From: Variovorax guangxiensis
GTDB lineage: Bacteria > Pseudomonadota > Gammaproteobacteria > Burkholderiales > Burkholderiaceae_C
Direction of reading: 5' to 3'
Length of the DNA: 64,000 nucleotides
Assembly: GCF_003952165.1 (NCBI RefSeq)
Contig: NZ_RXFT01000008.1
Span: forward strand, 62,001-126,000
Shown: piece after piece, positions 8,029-9,732 of the stretch
How positions within the stretch are numbered: the first letter of the stretch is position 1
How the letters are laid out: the number at the start of each line of letters is the position of its first letter
The notes under the pieces: model-generated
Databases searched by the model: none
Seen by the model: the letters and a program-made list of their open reading frames with translations, nothing else
What the model was told of the DNA's origin: nothing
Made by a program: the position numbers and the translations under genes

Positions 8029-9330
8029 ATGACTGGACTCGCCGGACTGCTCGACGCGCTGCTGGCCGCAAGGCTCGCGCCGCGGCTGGACGTGCTCGGC
8101 ATCAAGCCCGAGACCACCATCGGCGCGCCCGGGCCGGCGGTGGCGATCGGCAAGGTCGAGAACGATGTCAGGCTGCCTTCCAATGCGGCGCTCGACAGGC
8201 AGATCCCGGGGGCGGCTGCCGGCGGTACTCCCCATGCCGGCTCCGGCGCCCAGCCTTCGATGGAGACGCGGCTGTCGGTGGCGGCGCGCGTCATCGGCGC
8301 GGTGCTGGCCGACCTGCAGGCGCAACCGGGGCCGGTGCGTGGCGCCGTGCCCCTGATGCCGTCGCGCGCGCAGCCGGTGAACGCCGCGGCGCTGGCGGGC
8401 ACGCTGGCGCAGGCTGTGTCGGACAGCGGGCTCTTCTATGAATCGCACCTGGCGTCGTTCACGGTTGGCGGCCGCACGCTCGCGCAGATGAAGCAGGAGC
8501 CGCAGGCGCAGTGGGCCGTGCCGGTGATCGCGAAGACGCAGGCGGGTGCATCGGTCGCGTCGCAGGTGGTGGCTGCCGCATCGACGGCGGCGATCGTCGA
8601 TTCGCCGGATGCACTGCCTTCGCTCGTGGCGCAAGCTCAGGTGCCGGCGGTGCAGGGCGACGGCGCCCGCGCGGTGGGCGTTGCCGCGTCACAGGCGCCG
8701 GTCACAGCCGGGCAGCCGCAGGACGCCGGTGTCTCCTCCTCGCAAGGCAAACCGCAGGCTCTGGAACAGCAAGCTGCGGCGAACGACGCGGCGCGGGTGC
8801 AGGCCGCCTATCGGCAACCCGAGAGCGCATCGCCCGGCGGCGGCTTCGATTCGATGCCCGCGCACCGCGCCAGCGAATCCGCGCGCCAGGCCGACAGCGC
8901 CACGGCCCTGCCGGCATCGCGCGGCGGCGAAGTGATCCACCCCCAGGCCGTCACGCTGGTGCACCAGCAGCTCGATCTGCTGGCCAGCTCGGTCTTCCGC
9001 TGGAACGGCCATGCCTGGCCCGACGTGCCGATGAGCTGGACCGTGGAGGAAGAACAACAGGCCCGGTCCGAGGCGCGCGAGGGCGCGGTTGCTGAAGAAG
9101 AGGGTGCGCGCCGCTGGTCGACCACGGTCTCGCTGGAGCTGCCGAAGCTTGGCGAGGTCGACTTGCGGCTGAGCCTCGACGGCCAGGCCGTGCAGGCGCA
9201 TCTGTTCGCGCGCGAGGCTTCGACCATGGCGCGCCTGCGCGGCGACACCGGCCGGCTCGCGAAGCGTTTCGACGCCGCGGGCCTGCAGCTGCAGCAGGTG
9301 CTGGTCGCCGCGAAGGAGGTTGCCGTATGA
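8029..9330 (+). CDS. fliK: Flagellar hook-length control protein FliK-like
   Basis: FliK measures hook length and triggers the FlhB switch from hook to filament export. The 433-residue protein has a low-complexity Ala/Gln/Ser/Pro-rich first part (to about residue 320) and a C-terminal domain with beta structure (LPKLGEVDLRLSLDGQAVQA) followed by a helix (TGRLAKRFDAAGLQLQQVLV), the FliK C-terminal pattern. Its place directly before an FlhB C-terminal paralogue supports an export-switch role. A second, canonical fliK may lie with fliI/J beyond the left edge, so this could be a FliK paralogue. Its stop overlaps the first 65-bp repeat ATG. Confidence 0.75.
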   Translation: MTGLAGLLDALLAARLAPRLDVLGIKPETTIGAPGPAVAIGKVENDVRLPSNAALDRQIPGAAAGGTPHAGSGAQPSMETRLSVAARVIGAVLADLQAQPGPVRGAVPLMPSRAQPVNAAALAGTLAQAVSDSGLFYESHLASFTVGGRTLAQMKQEPQAQWAVPVIAKTQAGASVASQVVAAASTAAIVDSPDALPSLVAQAQVPAVQGDGARAVGVAASQAPVTAGQPQDAGVSSSQGKPQALEQQAAANDAARVQAAYRQPESASPGGGFDSMPAHRASESARQADSATALPASRGGEVIHPQAVTLVHQQLDLLASSVFRWNGHAWPDVPMSWTVEEEQQARSEAREGAVAEEEGARRWSTTVSLELPKLGEVDLRLSLDGQAVQAHLFAREASTMARLRGDTGRLAKRFDAAGLQLQQVLVAAKEVAV

Positions 9331-9395
9331 GCGCCGCGCCGGGCCGCCCCAAGCAAGCTCGCACCGCAGTGCGAAGCACGAAGGTATTCCAATGA
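9327..9395 (+). CDS. 22-residue mini-ORF in repeat copy 1
   Basis: The frame starts MSAAPGRPKQ and ends STKVFQ, then TGA. Its ATG overlaps the fliK stop and its stop overlaps the next mini-ORF start, an arrangement typical of translational coupling. The peptide is basic (five Arg/Lys in 22 residues) and has no family I recognise. Translation is plausible from the layout, but function of the peptide itself is not supported. Confidence 0.35.
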   Translation: MSAAPGRPKQARTAVRSTKVFQ

Positions 9396-9456
9396 GCGCT
9401 GCGCCGGGCCGCCCCAGGCAAGCTCGCACCGCAGTGCGAAGCACGAAGGTATTCCA
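9327..9456 (+). repeat. Two tandem 65-bp repeats between fliK and fhlB
   Basis: Copies at 9327-9391 and 9392-9456 differ at two positions only. Each begins with an ATG that overlaps the preceding stop (ATGA), carries a 22-codon reading frame, and ends with GAAGGT about 8 bases before the next ATG, so each unit supplies a ribosome-binding site and start for what follows. The unit resembles a short repeat that I recall scattered in Variovorax-type genomes, which needs a genome search. Confidence 0.9.
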
Positions 9457-9460
9457 ATGA
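9392..9460 (+). CDS. 22-residue mini-ORF in repeat copy 2
   Basis: It is identical to the first mini-ORF except Lys9 to Arg (the other change is silent). Its stop TGA overlaps the ATG of fhlB. It may act as a leader that passes ribosomes from fliK to fhlB. Confidence 0.35.
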   Translation: MSAAPGRPRQARTAVRSTKVFQ

Positions 9461-9732
9461 ACGAGGTGCTCGACAACCGCAACAGCGCCGTCGCGCTGTC
9501 CTATGCGGACAAGACGCGGGCGCCCGTCGTCGTGGCCAAGGGTTATGGCGTGGTCGCCGAATCGATCATGCGCGAGGCGCGCGAGCACGGGCTTTACGTG
9601 CACTCGTCGGCCGACCTCGTGAAGCTCCTGATGCAGGTCGACCTGGACAGGCAGGTCCCGCCGCAGCTGTACCTCGCCGTGGCGGAGGTGATGGCGTGGA
9701 TCTACCGCCTCGAGGGTCGCGCAGGCGACTAA
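9457..9732 (+). CDS. fhlB: FhlB: free-standing FlhB C-terminal domain-like protein
   Basis: The 91-residue protein aligns with the cytoplasmic C-terminal domain of FlhB (FlhB_CC). SAVALSY, AP.VVAKG and QLYLAVAEVMAWIYRLEG match FAVALKY, APRVVAKG and LYTAVAEVLAWVYQLRRW in the full-length FlhB at 20.2 kb. It lacks membrane segments and the autocleaving NPTH tetrapeptide (here DNRN precedes SAVAL). Such FhlB proteins are thought to replace or modulate the cleaved FlhB C domain at the export gate. It follows the FliK-like gene and is coupled to it through the two 65-bp repeats. Confidence 0.85.
   Translation: MNEVLDNRNSAVALSYADKTRAPVVVAKGYGVVAESIMREAREHGLYVHSSADLVKLLMQVDLDRQVPPQLYLAVAEVMAWIYRLEGRAGD

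Follow-up and report, generated by a model that had tools for sequence, protein, structure and literature searches.

Short repeats of Variovorax and related genera that appear to insert at operon start codons and may act as translational coupling cassettes

Introduction

Repeats that are short, dispersed and hairpin-forming and carry no genes of their own include REP, ERIC, RUP and similar elements, none of which, to our knowledge, is defined by insertion at start codons together with a coupled open reading frame (ORF). The MIRUs of mycobacteria share the direction of their neighbouring genes. As far as we know, they are described as lacking dyad symmetry, and a structured Shine-Dalgarno sequence (SD) is not among their known features. 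PMC12548453 presents MIRUs as apparently mobile repeats whose insertion sites are start codons and whose internal ORF is coupled at -4 nt, with little effect of the insertion on the gene thought likely. Here we describe a family of repeat units, two of which lie between fliK and a small fhlB-like gene in a stretch of 64,000 nt from Variovorax guangxiensis (GCF_003952165.1, contig NZ_RXFT01000008.1, positions 62,001 to 126,000 of the forward strand). This stretch is called the window below, and plain coordinates refer to it.

Overlapping gene pairs that rely on termination and reinitiation can be tightly linked in translation; in PMC6728339, strict coupling was seen for 13 of the 14 pairs tested. 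The two textbook models, which explain coupling by reinitiation or by RNA unfolding, are reviewed in PMC12548453. We conclude, with a probability of about 0.72, that the Variovorax units insert precisely at ATGA (less often GTGA) start codons within operons, preferring those that overlap an upstream stop, and that they act as coupling cassettes. The figure covers insertion and coupling jointly, and its parts concerning coupling, translation of the mini-ORF inside the unit and lack of polarity are inferred from sequence.

Results

Positions 9327-9456 are made up of two abutting direct repeats of 65 nt, unit 1 (9327-9391) and unit 2 (9392-9456), both of type A1 and 97% identical by repeat search and inspection of the sequence. 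An ATGA stands at all three junctions (fliK/unit 1, unit 1/unit 2 and unit 2/fhlB), and the reading chain begun in unit 1 runs through to 9457 (locus L001). An earlier note, made from the sequence of this locus, had described two near-identical 65-bp units that chain fliK to fhlB through two mini-ORFs by ATGA overlaps, and both the coordinates and the degree of identity agree with it. Its GAAGGT motif ahead of each ATG is likewise present in both units, as an SD-like sequence at 9380-9385 in unit 1 and at 9445-9450 in unit 2, but the spacing to the next ATG is 6 nt in each and not about 8 bases.

Comparison with relatives gives the clearest picture of how the units arrived. A fhlB gene was found in 64 of 101 Variovorax genomes, and the fliK-fhlB junction was examined in 63 of these (G015 was left out). 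In 58 it is empty, with a bare stop/start overlap (51 ATGA, 7 GTGA); in the other five it is filled, at that overlap codon, by three variants (A1, A3 and A5). V. guangxiensis and G059 each have two A1 units, G095 has two A5 units, G013 one A5 unit and G019 one A3 unit. The comparison proposed in the earlier note, for 0, 1 or 2 copies at this junction, thus yields 58, 2 and 3 genomes, respectively. Since different variants occupy one codon, insertion must have occurred here repeatedly. Where the site is empty there is a single ATGA, and where it is filled the sequence reads ATGA-unit-ATGA with nothing lost, as in a target-site duplication; the unit was therefore inserted precisely at the start codon, duplicating the ATGA and bringing in an SD. 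An inverted pair at the unit ends, as expected of a miniature inverted-repeat element of a DDE transposon, was not found by the repeat search.

Other junctions show the same range of states. At rnhA-dnaQ, 30 of 99 junctions were examined, of which three hold a type A unit, five a type B unit and 22 are empty. One of the units there (L332) occupies a start ATGA that lies 14 nt past the upstream stop, while the site is empty in the close relatives L328 and L330, which argues that a start codon, and not a stop overlap, is required. The unit before cobS is single in V. guangxiensis and triple in G059 at an apparently equivalent junction. We also observed three tandem units on the reverse strand of L226, at about 2539, whose inner ATGA junctions have decayed and whose outer ones are kept.

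Within the window, the two copies between fliK and fhlB are the only matches, at up to three mismatches, to a 21-nt core (0.03 expected) and to the 15-nt end from the SD to the ATGA (0.16 expected). Searches of the whole V. guangxiensis genome by blastn and sequence pattern found seven full units at six loci. A covariance model built on 40 units recovered these seven (units 1 and 2 scoring 95 and 92.2 bits), two type B units and two further junction variants, one of just 56 nt. In all, units or their variants occupy gene junctions at ten loci. The called flanking genes are co-directional with the unit at 10 of 10, and at eight the upstream gene stops at the TGA within the first ATGA of the unit; at one of the other two the junction reads TGATGA, and at the other the stop lies 38 nt upstream. 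A count of copies between co-directional genes with ATGA, suggested in the earlier note, therefore comes out as that note anticipated.

An eleventh, partial copy (C38:186821-186871; L375, L429) has no 5´ ATGA; the upstream reading frame, whose end is the 3´ half of a unit, joins the next gene by ATGA. Related intergenic type B repeats in V. guangxiensis depart from the rule of junction and direction. In those with the loop CGCCGGGCCGCCCCAAG (L033/L009, L034/L010, L038/L015, L041/L012, L045/L013 and L014), the stem differs from site to site and its internal arm is an inverted copy of the host flank. Over nine such sites, six of them in V. guangxiensis, the stems add up to a length of 54, whereas shuffled arms give 27.9 (at most 45 in 1000). 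Several of these repeats are antisense and adjoin start codons.

The wider relationship between units and genes was assessed on 118 arrays in 117 stretches, among the matches listed, using as bait a core pattern that includes neither end of the unit and taking gene neighbours from a codon-based caller trained on known window genes. Of the 108 arrays that have called genes on both flanks, 96 are in sense and lie between co-directional genes; the other 12 comprise six with a divergent upstream gene, four antisense arrays and two with an opposing downstream gene. No array of the 118 falls within a called gene. At the 5´ end 103 of them have [AG]TGA, and at the 3´ end 110 have [AGT]TGA. For the first 76 listed arrays with both neighbours, 67 are sense and co-directional, compared with 39% expected from the gene order of the same loci. 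An upstream stop lies in the 5´ ATGA of 48 of 65 classifiable arrays (L080-L159) but in only 29 of 134 other ATGA-starting genes at these loci (odds ratio 10). A further 20 sites, taken from three other genera and overlapping the first set by two (L420 and L421), have [AG]TGA at the 5´ end in 18 cases and at the 3´ end in all 20; every called neighbour is in sense, and an upstream gene is called close to the unit in 19. The earlier note had set out that copies mostly in non-operonic or reversed positions, or lacking the ATGA phase, would speak against coupling, and this is not the distribution seen.

Genes that follow a unit open with ATG-AGC in 53 of 100 cases, compared with 29 of 147 other genes, and part of this excess may be due to further, diverged units. 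The four antisense arrays are L091, L104, L120 and L168; the first three have flanking sequence in common and may represent one old insertion.

The units would each encode a short peptide. The putative mini-ORF 1 (9327-9395) and mini-ORF 2 (9392-9460) both have 22 codons plus a stop and overlap their neighbours by ATGA at both ends. Type A units are mainly 65 or 62 nt long; type B units, of 86 or 89 nt, have the 5´ half in common with type A and resemble a type A unit with about 23 nt added. Of 107 single units followed by an ORF of at least 60 codons, 100 have a reading chain that leads from their own ATG to the next start, and the chain is intact in 19 of 20 arrays followed by such an ORF. 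Seven arrays hold a unit whose length is divisible by 3 and which is thus out of frame; such a unit is never the last one (permutation 0.001). When the failing array L384 is added, the value becomes about 0.008 by hand calculation; L382 and L172, in which all units are out of frame and short ORFs follow, are uninformative in this test. The earlier note's idea of a portable repeat that keeps the coupling phase at every junction is borne out as to ATGA phase and position (the 100 of 107 chains and 96 of 108 listed arrays above), but such behaviour is not unprecedented, because MIRUs do likewise.

Each unit is predicted to fold into two hairpins. In unit 1, hairpin 1 (9329-9360) pairs GAGC at 9329-9332 with GCTC at 9357-9360 and takes in the G and A of the ATGA. 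Hairpin 2 (9363-9385) joins ACC at 9363-9365 to GGT at 9383-9385 and GTGC at 9369-9372 to GCAC at 9376-9379 around a GAA loop, and covers the SD. The equivalent positions in unit 2 are 9394-9425 and 9428-9450, the latter again including the SD-like motif. The arms of hairpin 1 covary, with 303 of 406 cells paired (58 distinct arm pairs), whereas shuffles give a mean of 272.6 and a maximum of 289 in 2000. For hairpin 2, with the pattern ACC-GCA-GTGC-GNA-GCAC-GRA-GGT in the predicted RNA fold of an A1 unit, the stem occurs as GTGC/GCAC, GCGC/GCGC, ATGC/GCAT and GCCC/GGGC. The pair that closes over the SD is A-T in 195 of 218 units, C-G in 16, G-C in one (a pair that occurs in V. guangxiensis), G-T in one and unpaired in five. 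In alignment A1, the covariation score and the number of double changes exceed those of 500 of 500 shuffles. An alternative hairpin, GCAC-CGCA-GTGC, was rejected, with 332 of 340 cells paired and zero double changes, compared with 340 of 340 and double changes for hairpin 2. In the predicted type B fold the final GGGGGC pairs with GCCCCC. Across the aligned units, both predicted hairpins are shown to be maintained through paired changes.

The family is widespread around Variovorax. Unit matches (E 1e-6) occur in 92 of 100 Variovorax genomes searched, with at most about nine candidates per genome scored in full, so that copy numbers are lower bounds. In the host family, 93 of 399 genomes, belonging to 47 of 141 genera, contain a 24-nt core (up to two mismatches), with 0 matches for a reversed-pattern control; the genus count refers to core matches, and two of 30 loci inspected (L236 and L243) are not units. 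Order-wide, seven of 399 genomes match, six of which are within the host family, and the seventh match is not a unit. The named hosts are Variovorax, Xenophilus, Xylophilus, Aquabacterium, Polaromonas and relatives, most named matches being in Variovorax, and no mycobacterium is among them.

Matches were found in four of 72,556 plasmid records, none of 50,697 phage records matched, and an exact core match was not found in viral contigs. The match on the V. paradoxus VAI-C replicon CP063167 has coordinates identical to those of the match in genome G014. In the deposited annotation of two plasmids, one coding sequence ends at base 4 of the unit and the next begins 65 bases past the unit's start. 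The IncP plasmid pDCB2 of Diaphorobacter sp. JS3051, which is conjugative, carries a unit (NZ_CP065408.1:67581-67644; L294) flanked by genes for an ABC transporter and an acyltransferase, and a route between genera is possible. We found no description of the Variovorax repeat family in openly licensed PubMed Central papers.

The genes joined by the two units in the window are fliK (8029-9330, forward strand; Pfam Flg_hook), whose stop TGA forms bases 2-4 of unit 1 in the ATGA at 9327-9330, and the small fhlB-like gene of 91 aa (9457-9732, forward strand; Pfam Bac_export_2, the C-terminal part, FlhB family), which starts in the third ATGA. The flagellar genes fliD, fliS, flhD and flhC are nearby. 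An Rfam search of 9200-9600 gave no match above the gathering score and a single one below it.

Discussion

We suggest that the unit is a portable translational coupler, akin to a natural, movable leader-ORF (bicistronic) cassette. On insertion, the mini-ORF takes the place of the gene's former upstream region, and the gene acquires a new start codon together with the SD of the unit, as the comparison of relatives shows. A ribosome that finishes the upstream gene could restart on the mini-ORF; in moving along it, the ribosome would open hairpin 2, which is predicted to mask the SD, and on ending at the next ATGA it could restart on the downstream gene. Through this chain of restarts, coupling would be handed on, and insertion would therefore be cheap.

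A stronger form of this model is that a start-codon-targeting mobile element installs an obligatory coupler, in which hairpin 2 locks the downstream SD and can be opened only by a ribosome that comes through the mini-ORF; the element would have an origin separate from that of MIRUs and an unrecognised mover, perhaps acting on single-stranded DNA. We consider this form rather unlikely as a whole. If it were true, neighbouring genes would become strictly coupled pairs, and tandem stacking of units could tune the ratio of two proteins.

Several observations weigh against insertion with coupling as we propose it. Among the listed arrays, four lie in antisense, and in six the upstream gene is divergent. 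The mini-ORF chain is broken in seven of 107 single units and in one array before a long ORF (L384), and 15 of 136 bounded units are of out-of-frame length, which amounts to 15 of the 18 that are neither 65 nor 62 nt long. The predicted folds are no more stable than those of shuffled sequences (z 0.53 for A1 and 0.58 for type B), and the minimum-energy folds of the variants L109 and L087 do not contain hairpin 2 as modelled. In alignment A1, the count of further pair types is within chance (reached by 100 of 500 shuffles), and one slid version scores 0.052 for covariation, against 0.065. Selection on the peptide is not clear, with 51 synonymous changes where 42.5 are expected. Finally, most units were found through the core, which restricts how much variation could come to light, and orthology among some arrays means that the counts are not fully independent.

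The alternative that survives best accepts the insertion as described but has the hairpins serve to move the unit in the form of single-stranded DNA. In that case the downstream gene would use its new SD alone, the ATGA phase would be kept by selection against other insertions, and there would be neither an SD lock nor obligatory coupling. The loop of hairpin 2 is GNA in 146 of 157 distinct units, and GNA loops are very stable in DNA; the lack of RNA folding beyond shuffles and the seven single units that precede long ORFs without a reading chain fit this view as well. However, the pair closing over the SD covaries in the sense strand, as a role in RNA predicts, and where arrays contain an out-of-frame unit the last unit is always in frame, a bias that persists with L384 included. 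We regard this explanation as possible, at odds clearly below even.

Movement of the unit as a REP-like element by a RAYT (Y1) transposase would account for hairpin repeats without a gene of their own, and 97 of 101 Variovorax genomes have a Y1 gene. Nevertheless, all eight unit-less genomes have a Y1 gene and all four genomes without a Y1 gene have units, and the Y1 gene of V. guangxiensis adjoins gltB, with no unit within 12 kb. As the presence of Y1_Tnp is unrelated to that of units across Variovorax genomes, we reject the association, and this route seems highly improbable.

We give even less credence to the notion that the mini-ORF encodes a functional small protein copied into many operons. 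The main length classes of 65, 62, 86 and 89 nt all preserve the frame, and the type B units found with one pattern are open in 7 of 7, but the peptide has no Pfam match, the synonymous changes are not clearly in excess and frame-broken units exist. A plain tandem duplication or assembly artefact at fliK-fhlB alone, which the two copies in the window could have suggested, is refuted by the many loci, genera and independent assemblies with units, including a sister genome with two units at the same junction, and has practically no chance of being correct.

If insertion with coupling is correct, Burkholderiales, like mycobacteria, have repeats that seek out start codons and bring a coupled mini-ORF, here with a structured SD. 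The presence of empty, single and tandem sites in harmless close relatives allows study both of how operon coupling changes and of the machinery that aims at start codons.

How do the Variovorax units compare with what has been described? The likeness to MIRUs is considerable: the unit also sits at start codons, its internal ORF overlaps the next gene by the same -4 nt (100 of 107, at sequence level), and it runs with the neighbouring genes (96 sense versus 4 antisense at co-directional junctions of the listed arrays). In contrast to MIRUs, with which they are compared here by description only, the units belong to another phylum and have two hairpins with compensatory changes, the second containing the SD. 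The family looks like one separate from MIRUs, with RNA-type hairpins of its own. The ATGA/TGATG overlaps are like those of the termination-reinitiation pairs in PMC6728339, but there two genes are joined, whereas here a repeat recreates the overlap at each end. The proposed mechanism would combine reinitiation with RNA unfolding, the two models of coupling set out in PMC12548453. Synthetic bicistronic designs and coupling elements (PMC6302717, PMC5995908 and PMC11602170) similarly use a short first cistron to lead ribosomes on, but these are engineered, while the Variovorax unit is natural and dispersed. The small ORF mgtQ, between mgtC and mgtB, is also intergenic, has stem-loops and acts on translation of the next gene; it is a single locus and not a repeat family (PMC8092293).
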